DNA of 64,000 nt from an uncultured SAR116 cluster alpha proteobacterium. Lineage in GTDB: Bacteria; Pseudomonadota; Alphaproteobacteria; Puniceispirillales; Marisalimonadaceae. Each line of letters begins with the position of its first letter. Within the stretch, counting starts at the first letter, position 1. This document shows positions 24,405-54,721 of the stretch, in pieces. The position numbers were made by a program, and so were the translations under genes. The stretch is taken from the NCBI GenBank assembly GCA_902517815.1, contig CABYED010000002.1, forward strand, positions 124,001 through 188,000, written 5' to 3'. The notes under the pieces are model-generated. The model saw only the letters and a program-made list of their open reading frames with translations. It ran no database searches and was not told the DNA's origin.

Positions 24405-24413
24405 TACTAAAAT

Positions 24414-27632: not shown

Positions 27633-27650
27633 TATGGAGAATTAGTTATT

Positions 27651-28442: not shown

Positions 28443-28453
28443 AAGGTTTTTTT

Positions 28454-29542: not shown

Positions 29543-29546
29543 AAAC

Positions 29547-31707: not shown

Positions 31708-31709
31708 TT

Positions 31710-32111: not shown

Positions 32112-32119
32112 CTTGTTTC

Positions 32120-36679: not shown

Positions 36680-37541
36680 TCATTTTGGTCATTGTCCAAA
36701 TGATTAACAAGGTCAATGCTAACAAAATTACAGCATTCGCTGCTGCTGCAGGTAATTGAAGATAACTCATTTCAACATAGATTATTTTACCTATTGATGG
36801 AATTTGTTGTCCTCCCATTATTCCTATTGTAATAAAATCACCCATAACAACTGTTATAACAAAAATAGATCCAATTACGATTCCAGGTTTGCATAATGGT
36901 ATAATTACATTCCACAATATTTGTAATCCATTGGCACCATTGTCATAAGCTGCTTCTATAATTGATTTATCTATTCTCATCATAGAATTAAAAATTGGGA
37001 CTATCATGAAAAGCGTATATAAATGCACAAACGCTAAAACAATTGAAAATCCAGAATATAAAAGCCACTCTTGTGGTGCATCAGCCAAACCAGTTGAAAG
37101 TAAGAAATCATTTACAAGTCCGTTCCTGCCTAAAAGAGGTATCCATGAAATCATTCTAATGACATTTGAGGTCCAAAACGGAATTGTACAAAGCAAAAAT
37201 AATACAATTTGCCAAGTAATTGAATTCACGTAAAAAGCAAGAAAATAAGCTACAAAAAAACCAATAATTAATGTAAAAAACCAAGTAATAAAACAAAATA
37301 TAAAGGTTGATAAATACGTTTTAAAAGTAACACACATATCTTTTTCAAAGTTTAAGCAATCTTTAAAAATATACGAGTAATTTTCAAAAATAAAATCAGG
37401 TATTATTGAGTATTCGTTGTAATCCCAAAAACTTATAATTAAAGTTAAAATGAGAGGTATAAAGAAGAAAAATATAAATATTAAACTATAGGGTATTGAT
37501 AATAAACCAACGGATGGTTTTAACTTTAAGAATTTCATCAT
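36657..37541 (-). CDS. Spermidine/putrescine-type ABC transporter permease (PotB-like); track start 37580 lies in a hairpin, preferred start 37541 or 37538
   Basis: SIIEAAYDNGANGLQILWNVIIPLCKPGIVIG (EAA loop); internal MMKFLKLKPSVGLLSIPY is a more plausible N-terminus. Confidence 0.88.
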   Translation of the reverse strand: MMKFLKLKPSVGLLSIPYSLIFIFFFFIPLILTLIISFWDYNEYSIIPDFIFENYSYIFKDCLNFEKDMCVTFKTYLSTFIFCFITWFFTLIIGFFVAYFLAFYVNSITWQIVLFLLCTIPFWTSNVIRMISWIPLLGRNGLVNDFLLSTGLADAPQEWLLYSGFSIVLAFVHLYTLFMIVPIFNSMMRIDKSIIEAAYDNGANGLQILWNVIIPLCKPGIVIGSIFVITVVMGDFITIGIMGGQQIPSIGKIIYVEMSYLQLPAAAANAVILLALTLLIIWTMTKMIDIRKEL

Positions 37542-37564
37542 ATTTATATTTATATAATTATAAA

Positions 37565-37596
37565 AAAAATAGGGTAACATTAGTTACCCTATTTTT
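37565..37596. terminator. Intercistronic hairpin between ABC receptor and permease genes
   Basis: AAAAATAGGGTAAC-ATTA-GTTACCCTATTTTT, perfect 14-bp stem. Confidence 0.75.
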
Positions 37597-37606
37597 GAAT
37601 ATTTTT

Positions 37607-38878
37607 TTAGGATGCGATCATCTCATTCCATTTTCTAACCATGTATTTATTTTCGTCCATGGTAGCATTCCAACATGCGACACCGCCCATTCTTGCTTCG
37701 TAAGATCCGCCATCTCTTACTTCACCTTTAGAAGCTAATTTTTTACCTTCTGGACTCATAATGTCAGCAGTTGCAGGTTTACCCATCATCCAATAATCCC
37801 ACTCATAAGCTTCCATATACTTCTTTGCAGTTGGAATAACAGCTGAATAGTAACCTTGACGATTTAAATAAGCACCTACCCAACCAGATAAATACCAGTT
37901 TATAAATTCGTAGCAAATATCAGCTTGTCTTCCTTTTGTAGTAGAAGGTAATCCAAAACCTGCTGCCCAGGCTCTGTAACCCTCTTTAAGGGGTTGATAG
38001 ACACATGGAATACCTTTTGTTCTAACTGCAGTAATTGCTGGTGACCACATTGATTGTATAACTACTTCACCAGAGGCCATTAGATTCACACTTTCGTTAA
38101 AATCACTCCAGAAAGCTCTGAATTGACCTGCTTTCTTTGCTTCTGTAAAAATTTTCATTGTTAAATCAATTTCTTTTTTAGTCATGTTTCCTTTATCAGG
38201 ATACTTATACTCACCCATAGCTTCTACCACCATGGCAGCATCCATTATACCAATTGATGGTATATTCAAAATTGAGGCTTTTCCTTTAAATTCTGGATTT
38301 AATAATTCGGCCCAACTACTAATTGGCCTTTTAATCAAATCAGGTCTTATACCTAAAGTATCAGCGTTATAAACAGTAGGAATTAATGTTACGTATTGAG
38401 TTGGCTCTGAGGCAAATTCTTTGGATTTGGCACCTTTTAGGTACATGACCTTTTTTGGGGCGGTTCCTTGATCTCCAATTTTCTTTCCTGCAACTTCACC
38501 TTTAGTAAATGCAGAAGTTACGTTGTCCCATTCTTTAATTCTTTTGGTATCCATACCCAATAAATTTCCAGAAGGTACCAACTTAGGCATACTAAAATAT
38601 TCAGAATCAACAATATCGAAACTATTTGGTTGTGTAAAAATTGTCTTTACAACCTCATCAGTTGTTTTAACAATAAATTTAACTTTAATTCCAGTATCAT
38701 CAAATAATCTTTTCTGAACTGCATCACCCATATTCACAGCTGTTCCTAGATATCTAATTACTGGGGCATCAGCAGCATGTATTGCTGGAAAACCTTTAAG
38801 CAATCCTGCACCGGCGACTGCACCAATTGCTGCAGTCGAGGTCTTGAGCATATTACGTCTTGTTAAACTTTTCTTCAT
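37607..38878 (-). CDS. Extracellular solute-binding protein (PotD-like) with Tat-type signal; track start 38890, preferred ATG 38878
   Basis: MKKSLTRRNMLKTSTAAIGAVAGAGLLKGFPAIHA, then PotD-like fold; GGAGG SD overlaps the TTG start used in the track. Confidence 0.88.
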   Translation of the reverse strand: MKKSLTRRNMLKTSTAAIGAVAGAGLLKGFPAIHAADAPVIRYLGTAVNMGDAVQKRLFDDTGIKVKFIVKTTDEVVKTIFTQPNSFDIVDSEYFSMPKLVPSGNLLGMDTKRIKEWDNVTSAFTKGEVAGKKIGDQGTAPKKVMYLKGAKSKEFASEPTQYVTLIPTVYNADTLGIRPDLIKRPISSWAELLNPEFKGKASILNIPSIGIMDAAMVVEAMGEYKYPDKGNMTKKEIDLTMKIFTEAKKAGQFRAFWSDFNESVNLMASGEVVIQSMWSPAITAVRTKGIPCVYQPLKEGYRAWAAGFGLPSTTKGRQADICYEFINWYLSGWVGAYLNRQGYYSAVIPTAKKYMEAYEWDYWMMGKPATADIMSPEGKKLASKGEVRDGGSYEARMGGVACWNATMDENKYMVRKWNEMIAS

Positions 38879-38949
38879 ATTAACCTCCAAATTTGTTAAT
38901 GTTAAAGTTGTAAATTTAATATTTGTGTATTAAAGATATAATAAATTGG

Positions 38950-38977
38950 AAATATATGTTGCATATATTTTATGCAA
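38950..38977. promoter_or_regulatory. Overlapping inverted repeats in divergent promoter (candidate operator)
   Basis: AAATATATG-TTG-CATATATTT (38950-38970) overlapping TTGCAT-N7-ATGCAA (38959-38977) between divergent potD-like and potA-like genes. Confidence 0.5.
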
Positions 38978-39062
38978 TCAACTGTTTTTTTTAAAGATTG
39001 ATTAAAGTCTAGTCAATTTTTATTTATGGATTAAGATGATAAGTATTATTTAGGCAAAAAAA

Positions 39063-40049
39063 TTGAATAATCCAGAAAATTTAGAATTTGCGATTCTCAC
39101 CAAAAAATATGGTGAAACCATAGCCGTTGACAGTATAAATTTAAAAATACCAGCAGGAACATATTGTTGTTTTCTGGGTCCCTCAGGTTGTGGTAAAACC
39201 TCAACTCTTAGAATGATTGCTGGACATGAAGAAATATCAGGAGGTGACATTCTTTTAGGTTCAAGTATCATAAATGATTTACCCCCAGCAAAACGTGGAA
39301 CTGCAATGATGTTTCAAAATTATGCTCTTTTTCCACATTTATCTTGTCTGGACAATGTTGCCTTTGCATTAAAGATGCGTGGCATTAAAAAAAAAGAAAG
39401 ATATGACAAATCTCTAGAAATTCTGAAATTAGTTCAAATGGAAGATTATTCTAATAGATATCCTGACCAGCTATCGGGGGGACAACAGCAAAGAGTAGCT
39501 TTAGCGAGAGCCTTGATTACTAATCCTTCTATATTACTTTTAGATGAACCTTTGTCTGCTTTAGACCCTTTTTTAAGAATAAAAATGCGAAGTGAATTAA
39601 AAACATTACAAAAAAAGCTGGGTATATCATTCATTCATGTTACTCATTCTCAAGATGAAGCAATGGCTTTAGCTGATATGATAGTTGTAATGAATAACGG
39701 AAAAATCGAACAAGTTGGCGACCCCTATGAAGTTTTTAATAAGCCTAAAAACGAGTTCATTGCAAATTTTGTTGGTGGACACAATGTAATATCAAAAAAC
39801 AAAAAATTTTATTCAATCAGAATGGATCACATACAAATAATCAATAATATAAAATCAAAAGATTCATATCCAATGACTGTGAGTGAAATTGAATATCAAG
39901 GTCAAATAGTCAAAGTTACAGGTTTAACTAAAGATTTTGGACGATTAAGTGTATCCATAGGTGATGAGATTTTTTTAAAAAATAAATTTGATATTGATGA
40001 TGAAATTTTTATAAGTTGGGATAAAACAAAAGAAAATTCATTGATTTAA
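39063..40049 (+). CDS. Spermidine/putrescine-type ABC transporter ATP-binding protein (PotA-like)
   Basis: CFLGPSGCGKTSTLRMIAGHEEISGGDILLG, LSGGQQQRVALARALITNPSILLLDEPLSALDP; TTG start. Confidence 0.93.
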   Translation: MNNPENLEFAILTKKYGETIAVDSINLKIPAGTYCCFLGPSGCGKTSTLRMIAGHEEISGGDILLGSSIINDLPPAKRGTAMMFQNYALFPHLSCLDNVAFALKMRGIKKKERYDKSLEILKLVQMEDYSNRYPDQLSGGQQQRVALARALITNPSILLLDEPLSALDPFLRIKMRSELKTLQKKLGISFIHVTHSQDEAMALADMIVVMNNGKIEQVGDPYEVFNKPKNEFIANFVGGHNVISKNKKFYSIRMDHIQIINNIKSKDSYPMTVSEIEYQGQIVKVTGLTKDFGRLSVSIGDEIFLKNKFDIDDEIFISWDKTKENSLI

Positions 40050-40128: not shown

Positions 40129-41529
40129 TTGACTGATTCAAAAAATATTATCTATATAAATAATAAAAAAGTAGAGGTTAAAAATGTCTATCACGATATT
40201 ACTCTATTAGATTGGTTGAGAAATTATCATAAAATAACTGGAACAAAAGAAGGTTGTGCTGAAGGAGATTGTGGGGCATGTTCAGTTATAATAAATAAAA
40301 AAAATAAAGAGGATTCAAAACCCATAAACTCGTGCTTAGTAAGATTAGGCCAAGTAATAGGTAGTAGCATTACAACCATAGAAGGTTTAGGTTGTGATAA
40401 AAATCCTCATCCATTGCAAACGGCTTTTTCAAATGAATATGCTTCTCAATGTGGATATTGTACGCCAGGTTTTATTATATCAGGTGTTAGTTTAATAAAT
40501 TCTGGTAAAGTAGTTAATAATGATACAATAAATGATGCAATTTCAGGAAATTTATGTAGATGTACTGGTTACTCTCCAATAATAAAGGCAATTAAATCTT
40601 TATCAGATAGAAAAACAAAATTAAAAAAAGTTGAAATTATTAATAAAGGAAAAAAAGTTCGTTTCGGAAACATTACTTATTTAAAGCCAAGTAATTTAAA
40701 AGAGCTCAAAGATTATTTAGAAGTAAAGAGTTTTCAATTTATTGCAGGTGGTACAGATTTAAATCTTCAAAGACCTATCATAAACGAAAAAGAAAATAAT
40801 ATTATATGTTTAAGTTCCATTAAAGAGTTGAACTTCATCAAAAAATTTAAAGAAAAATTGGTTCTTGGAGGAGCGGTCACAATTGAAAATTTTCTTGATT
40901 CAGTTCGATCAAAAATGCCTGAATTAATAGAGATTCTTAAAAGGTTTGGATCACCACAAATTAGAAATCAAGGAACAATTGGAGGAAATTTATGCACGTC
41001 AAGTCCAATTGGAGATTTAGCCCCATTATTAATGGTTTTAAATTCTGATATAAATGTGTTTGGAAAGAATGGTATTAAAAAAACAAACATAAAAAACTTT
41101 TTTAAGGGTTACCGAAAAAATATTTTGAAAAAGGATGAGATAATTTTATCTATTGAAATACCCTATCCAAACAAAAAAAATAAAATTTTTTCCTGGAAGC
41201 TTTCTAAACGATATGATCAGGATATATCAACTATTTCTCTTGCCATAAATATACAAACTCAAAAGAATATAATAAAAGAAATACAAATGGCTGCAGGAGG
41301 CGTGGCAGAAACACCAAAGAGTCTTGACAAATTATCTAAATCAATGCTTGAAAAAAAATTAGATGATGCAATAGATTATGCAACTGAAAATCTAGATAAA
41401 TTTATCCAACCAATCTCAGATTTAAGGGGTTCAAGTCATTATAGATTAGAGGCAATGAAGGGACTGTTTAGAAGATTACAAATTTGTTTAAGGCAAGATA
41501 AAGAAAGTTTATCAATAATGGAAGTTTAA
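40129..41529 (+). CDS. xdhA: Xanthine dehydrogenase small subunit (2Fe-2S plus FAD domains)
   Basis: GTKEGCAEGDCGACSVII, YASQCGYCTPGFIISGVSLI, GNLCRCTGYSPIIKAI, FIAGGTDLNLQ, GSPQIRNQGTIGGNLCTSSPIGDLAPLLM. Confidence 0.95.
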   Translation: MTDSKNIIYINNKKVEVKNVYHDITLLDWLRNYHKITGTKEGCAEGDCGACSVIINKKNKEDSKPINSCLVRLGQVIGSSITTIEGLGCDKNPHPLQTAFSNEYASQCGYCTPGFIISGVSLINSGKVVNNDTINDAISGNLCRCTGYSPIIKAIKSLSDRKTKLKKVEIINKGKKVRFGNITYLKPSNLKELKDYLEVKSFQFIAGGTDLNLQRPIINEKENNIICLSSIKELNFIKKFKEKLVLGGAVTIENFLDSVRSKMPELIEILKRFGSPQIRNQGTIGGNLCTSSPIGDLAPLLMVLNSDINVFGKNGIKKTNIKNFFKGYRKNILKKDEIILSIEIPYPNKKNKIFSWKLSKRYDQDISTISLAINIQTQKNIIKEIQMAAGGVAETPKSLDKLSKSMLEKKLDDAIDYATENLDKFIQPISDLRGSSHYRLEAMKGLFRRLQICLRQDKESLSIMEV

Positions 41530-41531
41530 GA

Positions 41532-43823
41532 ATGAATAATTTAAATAAAATTCCAATTCACGACTCTTCTTTAAGACACTCCACTGGTCAGGCTATTTAT
41601 ATAGACGATATGCCTGAGCAAGAAAATTTATTGCATGGGGCTCCCGTTCTATCAAAAGTTGCATGTGGAAAAATAAAAAAAATTAATTCTGATAAACTAA
41701 AAGATCTACCATTTTTTACAAAAATAATAACAGCAAAAGACATCCCTGGCGAAAATGAGATTGGTCCTATCAAAAATGGTGAGCCTATTCTAGCAGACGA
41801 TTTTTTTTCATATTTAGGCCAACCAGTCGCGATTGTTTTGGCAAAAACACATCAAGAAGCCATTTATGCGAGCAGCTTAGTTGAAATTGAACTGGAGTTT
41901 ACAACTAAACCTATTCTTAATTTAGATGACGCTTATGAACAAAAATCTTTTTTAGAAGATCCAATGATTTTAGAAAAAGGCAACATAAAAAAAGATATGT
42001 CTAAATCAAATTATACTTTATCTGGTGATTTTGAAATTGGTGGACAAGATCACTTTTATTTAGAAACTCATGTTGCCATAACTTTTCCTGGAGAAAATGA
42101 CGAATACGTTGTCTGGTCAAGTACTCAGCATCCTACTGAGGTTCAACACGGTGTTGGAAAGGTGTTAAATATTCCATCAGCTAAAATTGATAGTAAGGTT
42201 AGAAGGTTAGGAGGTGGATTCGGCGGAAAAGAGAGCCAAGCAACTATTTTTGCAGCAATGTCTGCTTTGGGAGCCTATTTAACACAAAAACCTGTAAAGA
42301 TACGTCTTAACAGACATATTGATATGACAGCTTCAGGAAAAAGACATGACTTTAAAATATATTACACCGTAGGATTTACAGCTACTGGCAAGGTTCTGGC
42401 TTTGGATATAAAACTTTTAAGTAATGGTGGTAATGTTTTAGACCTTTCGGGGCCTGTAATGACAAGAGCTTTAACTCATCTTGATAATTGTTACTTCATA
42501 AAATCACTAAAAGCTATTGGGTATGTGTGTAAAACCAATACAGTTTCAAATACAGCCTTTAGAGGTTTTGGCGGTCCACAAGGAATGTTGACTATTGAAA
42601 ATATACTTTATTCAGTTAGTCAATATTTACAAAAGCCAATAGATGAAATTCGTAAAATCAATTATTATTCAAGATTAAATGGTCTTAAAACACCATATGG
42701 TCAAATTGTTAAAAATCCTAGAATTGAAAGGGTTTTAAAAGAAATATACAAGATAAGTGACTATAAGAATAGAATAAGAAATATTAAAGAATTTAACTTA
42801 AATCAAAAAAATAATAATTTACCTTTCAGAAAAGGTATAGCCTTAATGCCTGCAAAATTTGGTATTTCATTTAATAAACCATCATTAAATCAAGGAGGAG
42901 CGTTAGTCCATGTATACTCTGACGGATCAATTAGATTAAATCACGGTGGGACTGAGATGGGCCAAGGGTTATTCATTAAAGTTGCCCAGGTAGTTGCTGA
43001 ATGTTTTAAGGTTCCTCTTGAACAAATTCACATTACTTCAACAAATACTGCAGAAGTACCAAACACCTCAGCTACAGCAGCTTCTTCTGGTTCAGATTTA
43101 AATGGAATGGCTGCATGGAACGCATCAAATGTTATAAAAAACAGAATGATCGACCATGCTGCAAAATTATTTAAAAAAAATAAAAAAGATATTGTTCTTG
43201 GTGAAGGTAGAATTATTTGTGGTAACAGAAGTTTGTCTTTTTCTGAGTTAGCCTTTTCCTGTTGGGAAAATCGAATTTCTTTATCTTCTACAGGTTACTA
43301 TAAAACTCCCAAAATTTCATGGGATCAAGGTAAGTTGAGGGGTCATCCTTATTTTTATTTTACATGGGGAGCTGCAATTTCTGAGGCCTTATTAGACATA
43401 AATACCGGAGAGAGTAGAATACTAAGAGCTGATATTGTTCAAGATTGTGGAAATTCTCTTAATGAAAATATTGATATCGGTCAAATTGAAGGAGGTTTTA
43501 TTCAAGGTTTGGGGTGGTTGACATGTGAAGAATTATGTTTTTCCAAAGAAGGAAAATTACTTACAACTGGGCCGTCTACATATAAATTACCTGGGAGTAG
43601 AGATATTCCTCAAATCTTCAATGTTAAATTACTAGAAAAAGCAGATAATGAAGAAAAAACCATCTTTAGATCAAAAGCTGTCGGTGAGCCGCCTCTACTA
43701 CTTGCAATTTCTCATTTTCTGGCGCTAAAAGAAGCAATCAGGGCTTCTTCAACAAATTCAAGACCTGAGCTTCTTAATTCTCCAGCTACTCCATCTGAAA
43801 TTTTGAAAGTCTTAAAAGTTTAG
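41532..43823 (+). CDS. xdhB: Xanthine dehydrogenase molybdenum-binding subunit
   Basis: RRLGGGFGGKESQATIFAAMSALGAYLTQKPVKIRLNRHIDM, SNTAFRGFGGPQGMLTIENIL, LNHGGTEMGQGLFIKVAQVVAE, AVGEPPLLLAISHFLALKEA. Confidence 0.96.
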   Translation: MNNLNKIPIHDSSLRHSTGQAIYIDDMPEQENLLHGAPVLSKVACGKIKKINSDKLKDLPFFTKIITAKDIPGENEIGPIKNGEPILADDFFSYLGQPVAIVLAKTHQEAIYASSLVEIELEFTTKPILNLDDAYEQKSFLEDPMILEKGNIKKDMSKSNYTLSGDFEIGGQDHFYLETHVAITFPGENDEYVVWSSTQHPTEVQHGVGKVLNIPSAKIDSKVRRLGGGFGGKESQATIFAAMSALGAYLTQKPVKIRLNRHIDMTASGKRHDFKIYYTVGFTATGKVLALDIKLLSNGGNVLDLSGPVMTRALTHLDNCYFIKSLKAIGYVCKTNTVSNTAFRGFGGPQGMLTIENILYSVSQYLQKPIDEIRKINYYSRLNGLKTPYGQIVKNPRIERVLKEIYKISDYKNRIRNIKEFNLNQKNNNLPFRKGIALMPAKFGISFNKPSLNQGGALVHVYSDGSIRLNHGGTEMGQGLFIKVAQVVAECFKVPLEQIHITSTNTAEVPNTSATAASSGSDLNGMAAWNASNVIKNRMIDHAAKLFKKNKKDIVLGEGRIICGNRSLSFSELAFSCWENRISLSSTGYYKTPKISWDQGKLRGHPYFYFTWGAAISEALLDINTGESRILRADIVQDCGNSLNENIDIGQIEGGFIQGLGWLTCEELCFSKEGKLLTTGPSTYKLPGSRDIPQIFNVKLLEKADNEEKTIFRSKAVGEPPLLLAISHFLALKEAIRASSTNSRPELLNSPATPSEILKVLKV

Positions 43824-43959
43824 TTATCAACAACATCTTCTCTAACAACTGCTTCTTTTGGAATTGGTGAAAATTTTACTTTTCATCTCTACTATAATTA
43901 TACATTTAAAAGTTTGATAAAAATTGTTACATTACTAAACAAAATTTTCGAGCTTTAGT

Positions 43960-45318
43960 ATGAAAATAGCAAATTTATTAATTAAAAATGCTCAAATAAT
44001 TGCAACAATGGATGATGAAAGAAAAGAAATATCTAACAAATCTATTTATTGTGAAAATGGCAAAATTATTGACATCGGAGATCTTGAAAATTTTAATTAT
44101 AACCCTGGATTAATAATTGATGCACAAGAAATGGTTGTTATACCTGGTTTGGTAAATACTCATCACCATTTATTTCAAAATTTGACACGCTGTTATCCTG
44201 GCTCCCAAAATGAGTCATTATTTGGATGGCTTACAAATTTATATCCTATTTGGAGTAAAATATTACCCTCTGATATTTATATTTCAACTCTAATTGGATT
44301 ATCTGAAATGGTTATTAGTGGGTGTACCACTTCTAGTGATCATCTATACCTCTTTCCAAATGGATCAAAGCTTGAAAATCAGATTGAAGCAGCAAGTGAG
44401 GTTGGTTGTAGATTTCACGCCACTAGAGGCTCAATGAGCATAGGTGTTAGTAAGGGAGGACTTCCGCCAGACACACTTACTGAAAACGAAAACTCAATTA
44501 TAAAAGATTGCCAAAGGGTTATTGAAAATTTTCATGATTCTTCTAAATTTTCAATGTTAAAAATTGCTTTAGCACCATGTTCTCCATTTAGCGTTAGTCA
44601 AGATTTGATGAAAGAAACTGCTAAGTTAGCTAGAAATTACTCAGTTAGTATGCATACTCATTTAGCAGAAAATAACGAAGATATTGTTTATACCAAACAA
44701 AATTTTGGTATGACCCCAGGTGAGTATATTGAAAACTTAGGATGGGTTGGAGATGATGTTTGGCATGCTCATTGTGTAAAATTAAATGAAGATGAAATTG
44801 AATTATTTTCTAGAACAGGTACTGGTATTGCTCATTGTCCTTGTTCAAACATGAGGTTAGCAAGCGGGATAGCTCCTTTGAGAACGTGGATAGATATAGG
44901 TGTGAAAGTAGGGTTAGGTGTAGACGGTTCAAGTTCAAATGATAGTGGATATCTTTTAAATGAAGCTCGCCAAGCAATGTTGTTACAGAGAGTAAACTTA
45001 GGTGCTAATAAATTTTCACCAAGAGAAGCTTTATTTACTGCAACAAGGGGTGGTGCAGAGGTATTAAATAGAAATGATATTGGTCAGATTTCTATTGGTA
45101 AAGCTGCAGATTTTGCAATATATGATTTGAATAAAATTGCTATGTCTGGAGCTTGGAGTGACCCTTTGGCAGCTTTAGTATTATGTACCCCTGCTAAAAC
45201 TGCTTACACTATTTGCAATGGAGAGGTAATATCTCAAAATGGTCATTTAAATAATTTTGATCTTAATTTATCTTTAGAAAAACATAAGGTTGCGTCAAAA
45301 AGATTGCTGGATTTATAG
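43960..45318 (+). CDS. Amidohydrolase of the 8-oxoguanine deaminase/guanine deaminase (TrzN/AtzA) family
   Basis: VVIPGLVNTHHHLFQNLTRCYPGSQNESLFGWLTNLYPIWSKI, MHTHLAENNEDI, WHAHCVKLNEDEIELF, VGLGVDGSSSNDSGYLLNEARQAMLLQR. Confidence 0.92.
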   Translation: MKIANLLIKNAQIIATMDDERKEISNKSIYCENGKIIDIGDLENFNYNPGLIIDAQEMVVIPGLVNTHHHLFQNLTRCYPGSQNESLFGWLTNLYPIWSKILPSDIYISTLIGLSEMVISGCTTSSDHLYLFPNGSKLENQIEAASEVGCRFHATRGSMSIGVSKGGLPPDTLTENENSIIKDCQRVIENFHDSSKFSMLKIALAPCSPFSVSQDLMKETAKLARNYSVSMHTHLAENNEDIVYTKQNFGMTPGEYIENLGWVGDDVWHAHCVKLNEDEIELFSRTGTGIAHCPCSNMRLASGIAPLRTWIDIGVKVGLGVDGSSSNDSGYLLNEARQAMLLQRVNLGANKFSPREALFTATRGGAEVLNRNDIGQISIGKAADFAIYDLNKIAMSGAWSDPLAALVLCTPAKTAYTICNGEVISQNGHLNNFDLNLSLEKHKVASKRLLDL

Positions 45319-45825
45319 AGTTATGTATCTAGTTTCATTATCTGTGAAATGATATTCTTTTAAATTAATAGAAGTATCTTCTTGATCATTTATTCTATCA
45401 ATCACCCAAAAATCTTGTTTCTTTTTAACTAAAAGAGGGTGGTGCCAAACATTTTTATTGTATGTAACACCAGTATCCCCGTTAACATGGAAACATCTTA
45501 AAGTATCTAAATTTGGTAATTCATTTTTTTCCTCACTAACAACTATTAACCAATCATAATCTTGAATTGGAAGAAAACTTTGTGAGGCAACAGGATGTTT
45601 TTCCATAATCTTTATTTCTATAGGAAGGTCTCTTGGTAAACCAGAAAAGATAGAAATACCTGAATTTCCATCTTTACTTTCTAAATCTAACTTTGAAATG
45701 TTATGATATCTAGTAGTAGTTCCTTGATTGATAGAACGCAATTCTGATGCATTTTTCTTTTCTATAATATTCCCAAATCTAGAAAAAATTTTAATATCTA
45801 TTTGCTCGATTGGAATATTTTTCAT
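45313..45825 (-). CDS. allA: Ureidoglycolate lyase
   Basis: FSGLPRDLPIEIKIMEKHPVASQSFLPIQDYDWLIVV, GVTYNKNVWHHPLLVK. Confidence 0.92.
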   Translation of the reverse strand: MKNIPIEQIDIKIFSRFGNIIEKKNASELRSINQGTTTRYHNISKLDLESKDGNSGISIFSGLPRDLPIEIKIMEKHPVASQSFLPIQDYDWLIVVSEEKNELPNLDTLRCFHVNGDTGVTYNKNVWHHPLLVKKKQDFWVIDRINDQEDTSINLKEYHFTDNETRYITL

Positions 45826-45826
45826 T

Positions 45827-46819
45827 TTATAATTTTAAACCAAAAATTCTTAATCTTGATACTCCTCCGTCAGGATAAATATTTAATCTGACATGAGTTA
45901 CATCTTTAATTGACGTATCATTAACTTCGTAATTATGTATATTGTCTGCTTTAAGTTTTGATTTGTCCAAGATGTATTTCCAGTTATGTGAGTCAGTAAT
46001 CAGTTCTTCTAAACCTTTGTTTTTGTCAAAGTTTGAGACTTGCACTGATGCTTGATCTGGATAATTTCCTTTAAAATGAGCAGTATCTATTTCAATTTTT
46101 TTTATCAGACCCTTGGTTGCTAATTTAATTATTATCCAGTCATTACCAGGTTCTCTTCTCCTTCTGGTTTCCCATCCATCACCCATTGTTTTTCCTCTTC
46201 CATGAGATAGAAGAGCAGATACGTCACCATAATGAGCATTATTATAAGCAACAATAGAACCACCTAATTTTAAAGATGATAATTCAATTAGGTCTTTTTT
46301 ATTATTATAAATATCCCAATTAAGTTTTACTTCACCAAACAATCTTAATCTTGCAACTCCTCCGTCAGGAAAAATTTGTAATTTTATGTAATTAACTTTT
46401 GTTTTTGATTGAATATTAAATTTATTACTGGAATCACCTTTTAAAGATGTTTTAGAGAGTATTTCAATCCAGTCAGAGTCTTTGCTTGGTTTTTGATCAC
46501 TATATAGACCTTCAATTGAAGCAAAAGGAGGAAAATTTCCGGTAAAAAAACTTGTATCAATATCTATCTCAGTAATAAATCCTGGAGATCCTAATTCTAT
46601 TATAGCCCAATCATTGCCACCATCTCTTCTTCTTTTACTCTCCCATCCATCCATCCACTTTCCATGCTCATCATACTTATCTTCAATGAAGACTGGCTCT
46701 TTGTCATCTAGCATACGTGAAGCTTCACCGAAAAAATCATCAGAAACTTCAATTATTTTTGTACCAATTTTTGGAGAAGCTAGATTAGTTAAATTTTGAT
46801 TTATGTTGTTAGTGCTCAT
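45827..46819 (-). CDS. alc: Allantoicase
   Basis: Two tandem repeats: GWESKRRRDGGNDWAIIELGSPGFITEIDIDTSFFTGNFPPFASIEG and GWETRRRREPGNDWIIIKLATKGLIKKIEIDTAHFKGNYPDQASVQVS; PDGGVARLRLFG and PDGGVSRLRIFG. Confidence 0.95.
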   Translation of the reverse strand: MSTNNINQNLTNLASPKIGTKIIEVSDDFFGEASRMLDDKEPVFIEDKYDEHGKWMDGWESKRRRDGGNDWAIIELGSPGFITEIDIDTSFFTGNFPPFASIEGLYSDQKPSKDSDWIEILSKTSLKGDSSNKFNIQSKTKVNYIKLQIFPDGGVARLRLFGEVKLNWDIYNNKKDLIELSSLKLGGSIVAYNNAHYGDVSALLSHGRGKTMGDGWETRRRREPGNDWIIIKLATKGLIKKIEIDTAHFKGNYPDQASVQVSNFDKNKGLEELITDSHNWKYILDKSKLKADNIHNYEVNDTSIKDVTHVRLNIYPDGGVSRLRIFGLKL

Positions 46820-46834
46820 TTTTTTCCTATTTAT

Positions 46835-48241
46835 TTAAAGAATACAAAAATCTCTAGAAATATATTTTCCTAAATTTTTGTTAACTATGAATTCATTCTG
46901 ATCGTAAATTTTATGACCTCTTAACCAAGTTTGTATTGGCCATCCAGTAATATCTAAACCTTCATAAGGCGTATAATCAGAGCCATGGCTTAGATTAATT
47001 TGTTGAATTTTATTTTTTTTATTAGGATCCCAAATTGTTATATCAGCATCAGATCCAACTTTAATTGATCCTTTTTGAGGATAAAGTCCATACATTTTGG
47101 CAGGATTAGTAGAAGTTAGCTCTACAAACCTTTCCAAGCTGATTCTATTTTTGCTTACTCCTTCAGAAAACAAAATTGGCAATCTTGTTTCTACTCCTGG
47201 GATACCATTTGGGACCCATTTAAATGATGTTCTTGCTCCAGGCCTGTCTTTACCCTTACTATCTTTAAAACGGAATGGGCAATGATCTGATGAAAAGATA
47301 TCAAAAGTTCCATCGATTAATCCATCCCAAATAGCCTGTTGACTTTCCAAATCTCTTGGCGGAGGTGAGCATACGTATTTTGCTCCCTCAAAATCCATAT
47401 TTAATCCCTTCATATCATCTTCAGTTAAACAAATATACTGAGGGCAAGTTTCAGAAAAAATTTTAATTCCTTTATCTTTTGCCCATTTAATTTGAGATAG
47501 TGCCTCCTCTCCCGAAACATGAACAATTACAATTGGAATATCAACTATTTGAGCATGACTTATGGCTCTGTGCGTTGCTTCTCTTTCCACGATCTGAGGC
47601 CTAGACAAACCATGATAATAAGGGGCTAATTTTCCTTCATCTTCTAATTTTTTTGTTAAAAATCTAATAGCATCATATCCTTCAGCATGGACCATAACTA
47701 ACGTTTTCTCATTTTTAGCAACTTCGAAAACTTTCAAGAGTTCTTCATCATTTAAAACCAGATCGTCATATGTCATAAATACTTTGAAAGATGTATAACC
47801 ATCTCTAGCTAGTGCAGGGAGTTCTTGTCCTAAAACTTGTGGTGAGGGGTCACTTATAATTAAGTGAAATGAAGTATCTACAAACAAATTCCCATTAGCC
47901 TTTTTATGATAACTTTCTACACACTCTCTGAGGGATTGTCCTTTTTCTTGCATAGCAAAAGGTAAAACTGTGGTATTACCTCCTGCCGCGGCAGATTTTG
48001 TAGCGCTTTGAAAGTTGTCAGCCATTTCAACGTCTGGCCCTGATGGTTGATCTATGTGGACATGGGCATCTATACCGCCAGGCAGAACTAATAGGTTAGA
48101 AACATCCTCTACAATTTTTGCGTCAGCATTAATCTCGCCTATTTCACGAATTTTTCCGTCAGCGACGGCAATGTCGCAGTCTTCTAGACCATTTTCAGTT
48201 ACTGTTTTTCCATTTTTAAAAATTATGTCAAAATTTTTCAT
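46835..48241 (-). CDS. Cyclic amidohydrolase: dihydropyrimidinase/hydantoinase/allantoinase family
   Basis: LLVLPGGIDAHVHIDQPSGPDVEMADNFQSATKSAAAGGNTTVLPFA, GYTSFKVFMTYDDL, VMVHAEGYD, IFSSDHCPFRFKDSKGKDRPG. Confidence 0.92.
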   Translation of the reverse strand: MKNFDIIFKNGKTVTENGLEDCDIAVADGKIREIGEINADAKIVEDVSNLLVLPGGIDAHVHIDQPSGPDVEMADNFQSATKSAAAGGNTTVLPFAMQEKGQSLRECVESYHKKANGNLFVDTSFHLIISDPSPQVLGQELPALARDGYTSFKVFMTYDDLVLNDEELLKVFEVAKNEKTLVMVHAEGYDAIRFLTKKLEDEGKLAPYYHGLSRPQIVEREATHRAISHAQIVDIPIVIVHVSGEEALSQIKWAKDKGIKIFSETCPQYICLTEDDMKGLNMDFEGAKYVCSPPPRDLESQQAIWDGLIDGTFDIFSSDHCPFRFKDSKGKDRPGARTSFKWVPNGIPGVETRLPILFSEGVSKNRISLERFVELTSTNPAKMYGLYPQKGSIKVGSDADITIWDPNKKNKIQQINLSHGSDYTPYEGLDITGWPIQTWLRGHKIYDQNEFIVNKNLGKYISRDFCIL

Positions 48242-48258
48242 GAACTATACTCCAATGA

Positions 48259-49482
48259 CTATTTATTTTTCAGATTATGAACACTTATATAAAGTTGATT
48301 AATTAAACTTCTTTCATTTTCTTCAAGAAAAGAAATATTACCGGGTGGCATGGCATATGATAGCACAGACTGTTTATATATATTATCAATATTGTTTATT
48401 ATATCTGTAGGTGTTTCTAAATTGACTAATTTAGGAGCATTTTTCATGTTTTCCCATAAAGGCTCTTTTGCATGACACATTGAACATTTAGATACAATAA
48501 TATCTTGAGCACTTACCAAAGTTTTTTCTGGGATTAGTTCGATCAAAGTAGCTGTGTTTTTTACGTTATTTAGTTTTGGTTTACCCAAGTCTGAAATATA
48601 AAAAATTATTGATCCTAGAATAATTATTGGAACACATACCCAATAAGGTGGTTTGGCTCCAGTATGTTTAATATTGAAAAAATGTCTAATGAGCGCTCCA
48701 ATTATTAAAATAATTGAAATGATTATCCAAGAATATTTTGTAGCATAAATTAAAGGATAATGATTTGAAATCATTATAAAAATCACTGGCAAAGTTAAGT
48801 AATTGTTATGAAGAGATCGTTGTTTAGCAATAGCACCATGAATTGGGTTAGGGGTCTCATTTGCTAGCAAACTAGCTACAACTTTTTTTTGACCAGGAAT
48901 TATGATCATAAGAACATTAGCAACCATGATAGTGCCTAAAACTGTACCTATCTGCATAAATGCTCCTCTATAACTAAATATTTCAGAATAAGCCCACGAC
49001 ATGACAGTGATTAAAATAAATATAGAGATGATTAATACATAGACATTTGTTTTTATTGATAATCTGCACACAAAATCATAAATTACCCAACCAAAGACGA
49101 CGCCTAATAATGAAATTATTACAGCTTCATATTTTTCTAAATCATATTTGACAATATCAATCATGTATAATTCAGCACCTGCATAATATATAAGAGCTAA
49201 CAAAGCAAAACCTGAAACCCAAGTTGCATAGGCTTCCCATTTAAACCAGGTTAATTCTGAAGGCATTTTTGACGGTGCAACAAGATATTTAACTAAGTGA
49301 TAAAATCCACCTCCATGAACTTGCCAAGCTTCTCCATGAGATTTATCTGGAAGATTCTTATTTTGTTTTAAACTTAAATCTAAAGCAATAAAATAAAAGC
49401 TTGAGCCAATCCATGCAACACCTGCAATGACATGGAACCATCTCAAAATTAGTTCAGTCCATTCTTCCAATAAAAATATCAA
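48259..49482 (-). CDS. puuD: Membrane urate oxidase/urate hydroxylase with C-terminal cytochrome c domain
   Basis: ILRWFHVIAGVAWIGSSFYFIALDLSL, EAWQVHGGGFYHLVKYLVAPSKMPSELTWFKWEAYATWVSGFALL; C-terminal CSMCH haem motif. Confidence 0.93.
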   Translation of the reverse strand: MIFLLEEWTELILRWFHVIAGVAWIGSSFYFIALDLSLKQNKNLPDKSHGEAWQVHGGGFYHLVKYLVAPSKMPSELTWFKWEAYATWVSGFALLALIYYAGAELYMIDIVKYDLEKYEAVIISLLGVVFGWVIYDFVCRLSIKTNVYVLIISIFILITVMSWAYSEIFSYRGAFMQIGTVLGTIMVANVLMIIIPGQKKVVASLLANETPNPIHGAIAKQRSLHNNYLTLPVIFIMISNHYPLIYATKYSWIIISIILIIGALIRHFFNIKHTGAKPPYWVCVPIIILGSIIFYISDLGKPKLNNVKNTATLIELIPEKTLVSAQDIIVSKCSMCHAKEPLWENMKNAPKLVNLETPTDIINNIDNIYKQSVLSYAMPPGNISFLEENERSLINQLYISVHNLKNK

Positions 49483-49485
49483 AAA

Positions 49486-49836
49486 TTAGCTCCCTCTATA
49501 AGTACTATAGCCAAAAGGAGATAGTAATAGTGGTACATGGTAATGTTCAGATTTATTATTTACAAAAAATCTAATGGGTATTTTGTCAAGAAAAACATGT
49601 TTAAGGTCACTATTTTGTTTTTTCAGATAATCACCAGCAAAAAATAATAATTCGTAATGACTTTCCTCTAAGCTTTCAGCAGATAACAATGGTTCGTCAA
49701 TTCTACCATCCTCATTAGTCAAAACAGTTTTGATCAAAATTTTATCAATATCCAATATTTTGTACAATTCAATTTTTAATTCTACTGCCGGTTTACCCTT
49801 GCTAGTATCTAAAACATGAGTTGAAAGACCCGCCAT
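49486..49836 (-). CDS. uraH: 5-hydroxyisourate hydrolase
   Basis: GLSTHVLDTSKGKPAVELKIELYKI ... SEHYHVPLLLSPFGYSTYRGS (C-terminal YRGS signature). Confidence 0.97.
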   Translation of the reverse strand: MAGLSTHVLDTSKGKPAVELKIELYKILDIDKILIKTVLTNEDGRIDEPLLSAESLEESHYELLFFAGDYLKKQNSDLKHVFLDKIPIRFFVNNKSEHYHVPLLLSPFGYSTYRGS

Positions 49837-49865
49837 ATTTTTCTCTATTTAAATTTGTATAAAGT

Positions 49866-50426
49866 ATGCTTAAATCCACTGACATAATAATGACAGGTAA
49901 AATAATGTACAATAAAACTTTCAAATTTCTTTCTAAAAAAATGGAAAGAGAAGAAGTAATAGATCTACTTAAAAGTGTTTATGAGCATTCTAAATGGGTA
50001 CCAGAAAGACTGTTTTCTGAAAATATTAGTGGAATTCAAACAAAAGAAGAATTGCAATTAATGATGAAAAAAATAGTTGATAATTCTTCAGAAATAGAGA
50101 AATTAAATTTGATTAATGCTCATCCTGAACTTGGGAAAAAGCTTCAAAAAAAAGAAAAACTTACGAAGTTTTCGGAAGATGAACAAAAGTCTGCTGGTTT
50201 AGATCAATGCTCTGATGAAGAATTTAAAATTTTAACTAATCTTAACAAAGAATATAGATTAAAATTTAAATTTCCATTTATAATTGCAGTGAAAGGTTTA
50301 AATAAAAATCAGATTATAAATAATATGCAAAAGAGGGTTAATAACACCAAAACTGAAGAATTTGAAACTGCTATTAGTGAGATTCACAAAATTGCTAAAC
50401 TAAGAATTAATGATTTGACTTATTAA
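49866..50426 (+). CDS. uraD: OHCU decarboxylase
   Basis: VYEHSKWVPERLF, LINAHPELGKKL, EDEQKSAGLDQCSDEEFKILTNLNKEYRLKFKFPFIIAVKGLNKNQI. Confidence 0.95.
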   Translation: MLKSTDIIMTGKIMYNKTFKFLSKKMEREEVIDLLKSVYEHSKWVPERLFSENISGIQTKEELQLMMKKIVDNSSEIEKLNLINAHPELGKKLQKKEKLTKFSEDEQKSAGLDQCSDEEFKILTNLNKEYRLKFKFPFIIAVKGLNKNQIINNMQKRVNNTKTEEFETAISEIHKIAKLRINDLTY

Positions 50427-50470
50427 GTAGCTAATTTAATTTTTATCCCAGATAAATTTTAGGAAAGTAG

Positions 50471-51424
50471 ATGACAAAAGAATTTAAAGATATAAAAGGT
50501 GTTATTGCAATTGCAACAACACCTTTCAACAATGAAAATTTAATTGACTTTGAATCAGTAGATAGACTTTCAAATTATTATATAGAAAGTAAAGTTTCTG
50601 GAGTTACAATCCTTGGGGTGATGGGGGAGGCTCATAAACTTAATATTGAAGAACAAAAATCATTAATAAGAAGATACGTAAATAATTTAATTAAAACTGT
50701 TCCAGTAATTGTAGGGGTATCTAATGCTGGTCTTGATAACTTAGACTTACTCTCAAAATTTTCAATGGATTCTGGTGCCTCTGGAGTTATGATATCTGGT
50801 AATAATGGTTTAAAAAATGACGATCAAATCAAATCTTACTTCAATCAAGTTGTAGATCGTACTCAAGATATTCCAATTTGTTTGCAGGATTATCCACCCA
50901 CAACTAATGTTTACTTTTCTGAAAGTGTTATAAATACTATAATGAAAAATCATCCGTCAATTGAGATGTTTAAACATGAAGACTGCCCTGGACATAATAA
51001 ATTATCAAGACTTATTCGATATAGAGACAATCATTTAAATAGAAAATATAGCGTCTTTGTAGGTAACGGAGGCTTGTATGTTCCCCAAGAACTTGAAAGA
51101 GGTGCTGATGGGATTATGACTGGTTTTGCATTCACTGAAATGTTGGTTAGTTTACATAATTTATTTTCTAATAATGATAAAGAAAAAGCAGAAGACTTAT
51201 TTGATATATATTTACCACTTATAAGGCATGAACAGCAATTTGGAATAGGTTTAGCCTTAAGAAAATTTGTCTTACAACAGAGAGGTATTATTAAATCATT
51301 AAATGTGAGATCTCCAGGGCCTGTTCTTACAGAAGACGATATTAAGGAAATGAACTATTTATTAAAAAGATTACACTTAAAATTAACTGAAAAAGGTCTT
51401 ACAATTCCAAAAGGAATTAATTAA
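50471..51424 (+). CDS. Dihydrodipicolinate synthase-family protein
   Basis: GVIAIATTPFNNENLIDFESVDRLSNYYIES, GVTILGVMGEAHKL, IEMFKHEDCPGHNKL (candidate Schiff-base Lys). Confidence 0.9.
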   Translation: MTKEFKDIKGVIAIATTPFNNENLIDFESVDRLSNYYIESKVSGVTILGVMGEAHKLNIEEQKSLIRRYVNNLIKTVPVIVGVSNAGLDNLDLLSKFSMDSGASGVMISGNNGLKNDDQIKSYFNQVVDRTQDIPICLQDYPPTTNVYFSESVINTIMKNHPSIEMFKHEDCPGHNKLSRLIRYRDNHLNRKYSVFVGNGGLYVPQELERGADGIMTGFAFTEMLVSLHNLFSNNDKEKAEDLFDIYLPLIRHEQQFGIGLALRKFVLQQRGIIKSLNVRSPGPVLTEDDIKEMNYLLKRLHLKLTEKGLTIPKGIN

Positions 51425-51428
51425 TGGC

Positions 51429-52178
51429 ATGAAAATATTATTGTATAACCCAAACACTTCTGAATCTATAACTGAAACACTTTATGAAACTGCCAAGTTG
51501 GTTGTAAGTAGTGAAACAATTCTAATTCCTAAAACAGCAGAAAAGGGTTTCCCATATATATCAACTAAAGTAGAAGCCCAAATTACTGGTACTTTAGTTT
51601 TAGAAAAATTAGCAGAAATACATCCACAATATGATGCCATAATTATAGCTGCCTTTGGTGATCCGGGTCTGATACCAGCAAAAAGTTTGTTTAACTTGCC
51701 TATAATTGGGTTAGGGGAGGCAGCTATGTTGAGTGCTTGCTTATTTGGTAAAAAATTCTCAATTATCTCATTTACTAATGCAATGGCGTCTTGGTATGAA
51801 GAAAGTGTTGAATTATTAGGCTTACAGTCCAGATATGCAGGATTTAGAGCTATAGATGGCGTTAATTTAACTATAGATAAAATCCAAACACTTCAGAAGA
51901 AATCTCTAATTGAATCTGCTAAAAATGCTATCAATATTGATGGTGGTGAGGTAGTTATATTTGCAGGGGCTCCATTGTCTGGATTTAAAAAAATTGTTCA
52001 AAAAGAAATTAATGTGCCTGTGATTGATTGTGCTGAAGCGGCTGTAAAGCAAGCAGAATTAGCTGTTGTTATGAATCAAAATACTTTAAAAAAACCAAAA
52101 TTACCTCCTAAATCATCTATGGGGGTTGATAAAAATTTATCTGAATTGATTGCTCACAAAGCTAATGATGGATCATAA
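51429..52178 (+). CDS. Asp/Glu/hydantoin racemase family protein lacking both family cysteines
   Basis: ILLYNPNTSESITE, IIIAAFGDPGLIPAKSL, PIIGLGEAAMLSA, VVIFAGAPLSGFKKIV. Confidence 0.88.
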   Translation: MKILLYNPNTSESITETLYETAKLVVSSETILIPKTAEKGFPYISTKVEAQITGTLVLEKLAEIHPQYDAIIIAAFGDPGLIPAKSLFNLPIIGLGEAAMLSACLFGKKFSIISFTNAMASWYEESVELLGLQSRYAGFRAIDGVNLTIDKIQTLQKKSLIESAKNAINIDGGEVVIFAGAPLSGFKKIVQKEINVPVIDCAEAAVKQAELAVVMNQNTLKKPKLPPKSSMGVDKNLSELIAHKANDGS

Positions 52179-53084
52179 ATGAAAAGAAATTTTATTGGTT
52201 ATGGAAAAGAAAAGCCAAAAATTCTTTGGCCTGAAGAAAATAAAATTGCAGTATCATTTGTTGTAAACATTGAAGAGGGTGCAGAGCTTTCGATTTCATC
52301 AGGCGATAGTCAAAATGAGCATGTATACGAAAATAATAAAATTAAAATATTAGATATCCCAGATCTTTGTATGGAGTCTCATTTCGAATATGGTCTAAGG
52401 TCAGGTATTTGGCGTATTTTTGACGTTTTTGATAAATACAACGTAAAAGCAACATTTAGTTGTTGTTCTTTAGCGTTAGAAAATTCTCCTTGGTTAATAG
52501 ATGAAATATTAAACAGAAATCATGAAATATCTGCTCATAGTGTGAAATGGATATCCCATGCGTATCTAAACAGAACAGAGGAGAAACAAATAATTAATGA
52601 ATGTTACTCCTCAATATTAAAACTTTCTGGTCATCCACCAGTTGGTTGGCACACAAAATCTAGCACTTCGCCATTTACGAGGGATCTTTTAATTGAGCAT
52701 GGAGGATTTATATATGATTCAAATGCATACAATGACGACATACCTTATGTTGTAAAGAAAAATGATCATAAACTTGTTATTATTCCATATTCATTTGATA
52801 CTAATGATATGAGATTTGATGGTAACAATGGTTTTGTACAAGGTGATGATTTTAATATTTATTGTAAAGAATCATTTAATCAACTTTTCTCAGAAACAGA
52901 TGATGGTTCCATAAGAATGATGTCTATTGGACTACATCCTAGAATTATCGGAAGACCAGGAAGAATTAAGGGGCTTGAAGATTTTATCAAATATATAAAA
53001 ACCTTTGAAAATGTATGGATACCAAAGAGAATGGATATAGCAAAATATTGCTTAGAAAAGGAATCATTCAATTTTTTTGATTAA
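52179..53084 (+). CDS. Polysaccharide deacetylase-family, PuuE-like (S)-allantoinase candidate
   Basis: NFIGYGKEKPKILWPEENKIAVSFVVNIEEGAELSISSGDSQNE, YGLRSGIWRIFDVFDKYNVKATFSCCSLALE, HEISAHSVKWISH. Confidence 0.88.
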   Translation: MKRNFIGYGKEKPKILWPEENKIAVSFVVNIEEGAELSISSGDSQNEHVYENNKIKILDIPDLCMESHFEYGLRSGIWRIFDVFDKYNVKATFSCCSLALENSPWLIDEILNRNHEISAHSVKWISHAYLNRTEEKQIINECYSSILKLSGHPPVGWHTKSSTSPFTRDLLIEHGGFIYDSNAYNDDIPYVVKKNDHKLVIIPYSFDTNDMRFDGNNGFVQGDDFNIYCKESFNQLFSETDDGSIRMMSIGLHPRIIGRPGRIKGLEDFIKYIKTFENVWIPKRMDIAKYCLEKESFNFFD

Positions 53085-53201: not shown

Positions 53202-54176
53202 ATGATTACAAAAATTTTTAAAAGAACGTTTCTTTTTGTAGCTGTTTCTATCTTTAGTTTTAATTTGCATGCAGCAGATTGGACAATGGCTTCAGGCTAT
53301 CCAAAAAGTAACTTTCATACTCAAAATATAATTAAATTTATAGATGATGTTAAGTCCACTACTTCAGTTAATATTAATTTAAATCCAAATGATACTCTTA
53401 TTAAATTAGATGCAATAAAAACATCTCTTCAAAGAGGACAGATCCCAATTGGAGAAATTAGGTTAGGTATTTATGGTAATGAAGACCCAATGTATATTTT
53501 AGCTGGATTACCTTTTATTGCACCAGACTATTCAAGTGCTTGGTTGCTAAAAGATGTGCAGATGGAATATCTTCAGAAAAAATTTGATAAAAAAGGACTT
53601 ATGATCTTATATACTGCCCCATGGCCAGGACAAGGGTTTTATACTAAGTTTCCTGTAAATAGTGTCTCTGACTTTAGTGGTAAAAAACTGAGAATATATT
53701 CTACAGCCACACAACAAATGGGATCTATGTTAGGATTTAATGCAACAATTCTACCTTTTGCAGAAATTCCTCAGGCATTTTCTACAGGTCTTATTGAAGC
53801 TTTATTTACTAGTCCTCAAACAGGTATAGATATTCAAGCATGGGATAATACAAAACATTTTACATATGCTGGAGCTATTTTTAGTAAAAATGCTGTAGTT
53901 GTAACTAAAAAAGCCTTTAATGCTCTATCAAAAGGTGATCAGAGTAACATGTTAGCTGCTGCAAAAAAAGCTGAGCTTAGAGGTTGGGAAATGAGTGCTG
54001 AAACTACTAAAAAGCAAATTGATATCCTTAAGAAAAATGGAATGTCTTCAAAAAATGCTCCTGACGAGGTAATTAGCAAAATGAAAAGCATTGGTCTCGA
54101 AATGATGAAAAATTGGAGATCTAAAGCTAGTCCAGAAGCTAACGCAGTATTAGATAGATATTTATCAATGCGTTAA
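53202..54176 (+). CDS. dctP: TRAP transporter substrate-binding protein (DctP)
   Basis: Signal peptide; WTMASGYPKSNFHTQNIIKFIDDV, LPFIAPDYSSAWLLKD, DFSGKKLRIYSTATQQMGSMLGFNATILPFAEIPQAFSTGLIEALFTSP. Confidence 0.93.
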   Translation: MITKIFKRTFLFVAVSIFSFNLHAADWTMASGYPKSNFHTQNIIKFIDDVKSTTSVNINLNPNDTLIKLDAIKTSLQRGQIPIGEIRLGIYGNEDPMYILAGLPFIAPDYSSAWLLKDVQMEYLQKKFDKKGLMILYTAPWPGQGFYTKFPVNSVSDFSGKKLRIYSTATQQMGSMLGFNATILPFAEIPQAFSTGLIEALFTSPQTGIDIQAWDNTKHFTYAGAIFSKNAVVVTKKAFNALSKGDQSNMLAAAKKAELRGWEMSAETTKKQIDILKKNGMSSKNAPDEVISKMKSIGLEMMKNWRSKASPEANAVLDRYLSMR

Positions 54177-54194
54177 TATTTCAGAAAGATAGCC

Positions 54195-54710
54195 ATGAGA
54201 AATAAATTAAATAAGTTATATTTATATAGCGGCTATCTTTCTGCCTTTTTTATGGTACTTATTGCTTTGACCATAGTTGCGCAAATTCTAGGAAGATTTG
54301 TAAATATCACAGTAGATTCTACTGAAACTGCCGGCTTTAGTTTAGCTGCTCTAACTTTTTTTGGACTCTCATATACTTTTCATAGCGGTGAACATATAAG
54401 AGTTACCTTATTTACAAGATTGTTAGGGAAAAAAGTAAGAAGATATCAAGAGCTCTTCTCATTGTCATTTTGTATTATAATTACTAGTTATTTGACGTAT
54501 TGGAGTTGGGATTTTGTATATTTTTCATTTATTTTTGATGATATTAGCCCAGGTCTATTGGCTATCCCTTTTTGGATTCCAAGGATAAGCATGTCAATAG
54601 GAGTAACTATATTTTTAGTGGCTCTTATTGATGATTTTTTTACAGTTTGGAAAAAGGAACAGCCATCTTATGTTAAAAATGCTAATCCTATATTGAAAGA
54701 TAATACTTAA
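54195..54710 (+). CDS. dctQ: TRAP transporter small permease (DctQ)
   Basis: 171 aa, four TM segments; TETAGFSLAALTFFGLSYTFHSGEHIRVTLF. Confidence 0.9.
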   Translation: MRNKLNKLYLYSGYLSAFFMVLIALTIVAQILGRFVNITVDSTETAGFSLAALTFFGLSYTFHSGEHIRVTLFTRLLGKKVRRYQELFSLSFCIIITSYLTYWSWDFVYFSFIFDDISPGLLAIPFWIPRISMSIGVTIFLVALIDDFFTVWKKEQPSYVKNANPILKDNT

Positions 54711-54721
54711 AAGAGAAATAC

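Follow-up and report, generated by a model that had tools for sequence, protein, structure and literature searches.

A SAR116 purine catabolism cluster in which a hydantoinase-type protein is the likely allantoinase

Introduction

Purine catabolism has been described for bacteria of the SAR116 cluster, with racemase, end products and transporters that vary (Braakman et al., 2025; PMC11698098). Because that study reports SAR116 purine catabolism, the gene cluster analysed here belongs to a known kind. Its allantoinase step calls for comparison with two further enzyme types, hydantoinases and allantoinases, whose specificities are stated not to overlap and whose substrate lids carry Met63 in the hydantoinase of Bacillus stearothermophilus and Glu64 in the allantoinase of Escherichia coli (PMC9863593).

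We analysed a 64-kb stretch of DNA (termed the window; G+C content about 32%) from a SAR116 alphaproteobacterium (Puniceispirillales) whose genome comprises 2.04 Mb in 62 contigs. This genome is 89% complete, and gene absences are therefore provisional. Single-cell genomes labelled SAR116 cluster (loci L030-L034 and L040) encode PuuD proteins that share 95-98% identity with the one in the window. We listed the reading frames of the window and searched Pfam, NCBIfam and solved structures for matches to the cluster genes and their surroundings; the rest of the host genome was covered by single-family searches and in a few stretches.

Results

The core purine genes span positions 40,129-50,426, and all of them exceed Pfam cut-offs. 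The ten purine gene functions that had been named are all present, at the coordinates given below and with intact reading frames, and eight of the nine core products fall in the families expected for them, the remaining one, Hyd, belonging to the D-hydantoinase/dihydropyrimidinase branch. More than 20 SAR116 genomes have this gene set with its order unchanged, a recurrence that rules out chance. A sequence-only reading of this DNA had proposed a near-complete purine-to-ureidoglycolate cluster, which these family assignments and the recurring order bear out. Its description of a contiguous pathway holds for the presence of the genes but not for their arrangement, as the block is divided by strand into three transcription units rather than forming a single operon, two non-pathway genes (of the DHDPS and racemase families) lie inside the interval 40,129-53,084, and the PuuE-like gene at its end falls below the family cut-off. 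The first unit is xdhA-xdhB-deaminase on the forward strand, the second uraH-puuD-hyd-alc-allA on the reverse strand, and the third uraD on the forward strand, which diverges from uraH at a distance of about 30 bases. The deaminase gene and allA converge with an overlap of six bases.

Xanthine dehydrogenase is encoded by xdhA (40129-41529, forward strand), for the Fe-S/FAD subunit with Pfam domains Fer2, Fer2_2, FAD_binding_5 and CO_deh_flav_C, and xdhB (41532-43823, forward), for the molybdopterin subunit. XdhA carries two 2Fe-2S domains and scores 141 against a cut-off of 27 for FAD_binding_5, but remains under the cut-off of TIGR02963 (393 versus 467 bits). XdhB exceeds the cut-offs of both MoCoBD_2 (295 versus 27) and the XdhB equivalog model TIGR02965 (972 versus 849.5), which places the pair among the XdhAB enzymes. 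An XdhC-like gene is located on another contig (C18) beside a MobA-like gene, and scores 104 against the XdhC cut-off of 161.6. The deaminase gene (43960-45318, forward) encodes a member of the 8-oxoguanine deaminase family (NF006055, 646 versus 532; Amidohydro_1, 206 versus 25) whose best solved relative is the 8-oxoguanine deaminase 7ww2 (584 bits). Related enzymes accept both guanine and 8-oxoguanine (PMC6186785), and the substrate of the protein encoded here may be guanine, 8-oxoguanine or both.

The membrane urate oxidase gene puuD (48259-49482, reverse) encodes a Urate_ox_N membrane domain (PF06181, 416 versus 27) followed by a C-terminal cytochrome c domain with the CXXCH motif, here CSMCH at residue 333, and the distal methionine Met378. 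Soluble, cytosolic uricase (PF01014) gave no match in the host genome. The next two steps are represented by uraH (49486-49836, reverse), encoding 5-hydroxyisourate hydrolase with the C-terminal sequence YRGS (TIGR02962, 128 versus 87; Transthyretin, 120 versus 25), and uraD (49866-50426, forward), encoding OHCU decarboxylase (TIGR03164, 174 versus 96; OHCU_decarbox, 148 versus 24). Allantoicase, which contains two repeats, is encoded by alc (45827-46819, reverse; PF03561, 331 versus 27; TIGR02961, 409.5 versus 277.9), and ureidoglycolate lyase by allA (45313-45825, reverse; PF04115, 156 versus 23). Domain searches thus assigned puuD, uraH, uraD and alc to their expected families and none of them elsewhere. 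The gene set from urate to ureidoglycolate is complete, with the allantoinase step covered by a non-standard candidate, Hyd.

Two observations concern PuuD in relatives. In three SAR116 loci (L039, L041 and L080), uraD-uraH-puuD occurs without adjoining hyd, alc and allA; these pathways may end at allantoin, or the remaining genes may lie elsewhere. In addition, a short protein (about 200 amino acids) encoded in many genomes of the genus (G001, G005, G007, G009, G013-G017 and others) has weak PuuD-family matches at two stretches, and is too short for the full membrane and cytochrome architecture.

The hyd gene (46835-48241, reverse) encodes a cyclic amidohydrolase of the D-hydantoinase/dihydropyrimidinase type (NF009941, 678 versus 647; TIGR02033, 503 versus 393; Amidohydro_1, 91 versus 25). 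It scores below the model for AllB-type allantoinases (TIGR03178, 279 versus 358 bits). Among solved structures it is closest to hydantoinases and dihydropyrimidinases rather than to allantoinases. The metal-site positions of the superfamily are retained (HxH at 60/62, K153, H185, H241 and D319). In the substrate lid, Gln replaces the Met63 of hydantoinase and the Glu64 of E. coli AllB; a polar residue at this position is also common to distant homologues of Hyd, and the hydantoinase tyrosine, the counterpart of Tyr155, is still present. Applying the priority rules ourselves, we find the ureido group of (S)-allantoin where a D-(R)-5-substituted hydantoin has its side chain. (S)-Allantoin thus has the handedness of D-5-substituted hydantoins, which fits the handedness of a D-hydantoinase.

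Comparison of gene neighbourhoods places hyd between puuD and alc in the genus of the window and its close kin, and the same position is occupied by PuuE in sister lineages (for example L042-L053, L056, L064 and L068-L070). Two of these PuuE proteins were scored, at 472 and 475 bits, over the PuuE cut-off of 424.6. Co-occurrence was sampled in 61 genomes, 37 from family f1, that of the window, and 24 from the sister families f2-f4. Hyd, at a sequence identity of at least 83%, is encoded in all 23 f1 genomes with full-length PuuD, and canonical PuuE in none of the 37 f1 genomes. Conversely, 22 of the 24 genomes of the sister families encode canonical PuuE and none of the 24 an orthologue of Hyd, no match there exceeding 38%. 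In f1 genomes G008, G016 and G021, where hyd occurs without a full PuuD match, a contig edge cuts the locus. This pattern may reflect one ancestral swap rather than many independent events.

Homologues of Hyd at 50-60% identity are found mostly beside racemase and DHDPS genes, not urate genes. The Hyd family as a whole is consequently not an allantoinase family, and for the near clade only do the comparisons support the role of allantoinase. Elsewhere in Alphaproteobacteria, hyd homologues adjoin DHDPS, racemase or PuuE-like genes (L184, L190, L193, L197-L199 and L207-L209), which suggests recruitment from a hydantoin-degrading set.

Beyond uraD lies a second group of genes. It comprises genes for a DHDPS-family aldolase/lyase (50471-51424, forward; PF00701, 81 bits), an Asp/Glu/hydantoin racemase family protein (51429-52178, forward; PF01177, 126 bits) whose nearest solved relative is the allantoin racemase 5lfd (90 bits), a divergent PuuE-like protein (52179-53084, forward), a TRAP transporter (dctPQM, 53202-56020, forward; PF03480, PF04290 and PF06808) and HyuAB (56044-59732, forward; PF01968, PF05378 and PF02538). 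Between uraD and rac3, five loci (L213-L215, L035 and L037) have nothing, L216 has hyuAB only, and L211 and most others have the full set; because the content of this interval varies in this way, the DHDPS-racemase-PuuE-like-TRAP-HyuAB group is an optional and separate module. Locus L080 has the same module beside puuD, with hyd, alc and allA missing from the locus.

In the window, hyuB (58106-59732) is divided into two overlapping frames that break at a run of T near position 59,150. The gene is in a single frame in relatives L211, L212 and L216, and the frameshift reflects either an error of assembly or recent pseudogene formation. In those relatives of the family that were read, uraD is adjoined by genes for a molybdoenzyme of the DMSO/TMAO-reductase type and for a FAD/Fe-S dehydrogenase of 984 residues that resembles YdiJ/GlcD (window 60454-62799; L118:2842-5796). 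To our knowledge, neither has a link to purines.

A Pot-type ABC importer (35786-40049; potC, potB and potD on the reverse strand, potA on the forward strand) abuts xdhA. Pfam matches identify potC, potD and potA, and potB (36657-37580), which has no Pfam match, is named from its position. These genes form a unit with rac1 (35049-35780, reverse), an allantoin/hydantoin racemase homologue (PF01177, 175 bits) that is closest, among solved structures, to hydantoin and allantoin racemases (3qvj, 191 bits; allantoin racemase 5lfd, 142 bits). The uracil phosphoribosyltransferase gene upp is at 34414-35037 (reverse; TIGR01091, 236 versus 208). In locus L039 the Pot unit, with rac1 and the phosphoribosyltransferase gene, lies directly beside puuD and is followed by urease genes, and the Pot-type system probably takes up purines or ureides. 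A BMP-type ABC importer (17323-22093, reverse), consisting of a binding protein, two permeases and an ATPase (PF02608, PF02653 twice and PF00005), is probably a purine importer; its binding protein is related to the atrazine-binding protein 6pi5. The suggestion that both systems flank the cluster and import purines or ureides is plausible with respect to import, the direction of transport being predicted, and correct in position for the adjacent Pot system, but the BMP system is separated from the cluster by about 18 kb, although its binding protein shares 45% identity with a cluster-flanking one in the sister-lineage locus L042. In four relatives (L035, L037, L215 and L217), an NCS2 xanthine/uracil permease gene located between xdhB and the deaminase gene independently connects the cluster with purine import; the window genome has no such gene at this position.

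Positions 22341-33031 of the window contain a further TRAP transporter, with a large DctM and an NMT1-type binding protein, adjoining HMGL-like, CoA-transferase III, enoyl-CoA hydratase, Iso_dh and PrpF genes. This is a separate organic-acid catabolic cluster.

A search for genes handling urea and glyoxylate had been proposed, and it succeeded in part. A complete urease operon (ureD, A, B, C, E, F and G) is present on contig C9 and malate synthase is encoded on contig C3, but no glyoxylate carboligase scored over its cut-off in the host genome, and the best match to that enzyme was rejected as a biosynthetic acetolactate synthase. A class V aminotransferase similar to L-aspartate-glyoxylate and serine-glyoxylate aminotransferases is encoded near the cluster, at C2:189917-191089 in this genome and in relatives a few genes past uraD. 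A BhcA-like aminotransferase and two PF14031 genes are present in the host genome. PF02423, which marks the BhcD-type iminosuccinate reductase, was absent from the host genome, leaving the four-enzyme Bhc set incomplete; a full beta-hydroxyaspartate cycle is therefore unlikely, and we rejected it as the glyoxylate sink.

Discussion

The gene families, gene order and co-occurrence observed here are, as a whole, best explained by a SAR116 purine cluster in which Hyd replaces PuuE and the PuuE-like gene belongs to a separate module, an explanation that we consider highly probable. Gene content covers the entire proposed sequence from hypoxanthine and xanthine via urate, 5-hydroxyisourate, OHCU, (S)-allantoin, allantoate and ureidoglycolate to glyoxylate and urea, in agreement with the earlier proposal. 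What the enzymes do, what they act on, what is transported and what becomes of the products are predicted from sequence. XdhAB would convert hypoxanthine and xanthine to urate, and the deaminase would supply xanthine from guanine, urate directly from 8-oxoguanine, or both. PuuD would oxidize urate at the membrane and pass the electrons to its own cytochrome c domain, after which UraH and UraD would yield (S)-allantoin. Hyd would open the hydantoin ring of (S)-allantoin to give allantoate, from which Alc and AllA would release two molecules of urea and glyoxylate. The urea would be converted to ammonia by the urease encoded elsewhere in the genome, and the glyoxylate would be consumed by malate synthase or by a glyoxylate aminotransferase, not by glyoxylate carboligase.

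The sequence-only reading named two allantoinase candidates and left them unranked. If the PuuE-like protein were the allantoinase, Hyd would act on some other hydantoin or on a dihydropyrimidine. The best solved relative of the PuuE-like protein is indeed the PuuE allantoinase 3cl6 (241 bits), 61 near-invariant positions are shared with canonical PuuE, and the gene is about 2 kb from uraD in most relatives. Nevertheless, the protein lies outside the PuuE family as modelled (TIGR03212, 290 versus 424.6), its subfamily has altered or variable residues in 33 columns that canonical PuuE keeps near-invariant, and the urate transcription unit contains Hyd instead. The PuuE-like gene is accompanied by DHDPS, racemase and dctP genes in every copy examined (L144-L151). 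It is missing from this place in four genomes with puuD, hyd, alc and allA (G013, G026, G033 and G035) and in three further loci with the rest of the pathway (L035, L037 and L038). We therefore dropped it as the core allantoinase, a role for it being quite improbable, and the comparison favours Hyd. That Hyd is the allantoinase, through non-orthologous replacement of PuuE, is very likely on these sequence comparisons. Points against it are the score of Hyd under the AllB model cut-off, its hydantoinase tyrosine, the identity of its closest solved structures, the neighbours of its more distant homologues and the statement in PMC9863593 that the two specificities are separate. The wider proposal that one SAR116 family exchanged PuuE in place for a protein from a hydantoin-degrading set, and that a new allantoinase branch of the D-hydantoinase family arose in this way, is probably correct.

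Two other explanations concern what enters and leaves the pathway. Imported allantoin or ureides could be the main substrates, with the upstream purine steps secondary; the Pot-type unit next to the cluster includes a racemase homologue, and allantoin-only users occur in SAR11 (PMC11698098). We regard this as very unlikely, as xdhAB, the deaminase gene, puuD, uraH and uraD are intact and conserved alongside the remaining genes, and the NCS2 permease gene of some relatives lies among the purine genes. It is also conceivable that the pathway provides the cell with energy and carbon while urea is released unused, which has been inferred for SAR11 strains without urease (PMC11698098). The complete urease operon of the host genome argues against this alternative, which is unlikely.

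SAR116 bacteria belong to the heterotrophs that are abundant in the surface ocean, and the cross-feeding of purines with Prochlorococcus is under active study. Gene surveys limited to PuuE and AllB would mis-score this SAR116 family as ending at allantoin, and the automatic label dihydropyrimidinase can mask an allantoinase. Hyd as allantoinase would close the pathway and, with urease, predicts the use of purine nitrogen. The cluster had also been taken for a large investment in purines by a streamlined, AT-rich genome. It is not unusual for the group, given that 51 of the 61 relatives have PuuD-family matches (a few with the short paralogue only) and that the pathway is published for SAR116.

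With the described SAR116 and SAR11 clusters (PMC11698098), the window shares xanthine dehydrogenase, PuuD, HIU hydrolase, OHCU decarboxylase, allantoicase and ureidoglycolate lyase, as well as transporters, racemase and urease as variable elements. The allantoinase listed in that paper is PuuE, whereas the window has Hyd at the PuuE position; the main text of the paper does not mention a hydantoinase or dihydropyrimidinase, and our literature searches found no hydantoinase acting as allantoinase in a urate operon. New here are the proposed replacement of the allantoinase by Hyd and the placing of the PuuE-like gene outside the core pathway. PuuD corresponds to the protein described by Doniselli et al. 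(2015; PMC4562309) in its Urate_ox_N domain (DUF989), its CXXCH motif and a Met that follows some 40 residues further on, and we saw no difference from it. Hyd resembles E. coli AllB (3e74 and 8hfd) in its cyclic amidohydrolase superfamily, metal-site motif and polar lid residue, but differs in belonging to the hydantoinase/dihydropyrimidinase branch, in keeping the hydantoinase tyrosine and in scoring below the AllB model. With the PuuE allantoinase (3cl6) it shares the predicted reaction and the operon position, although PuuE has the unrelated polysaccharide-deacetylase fold.
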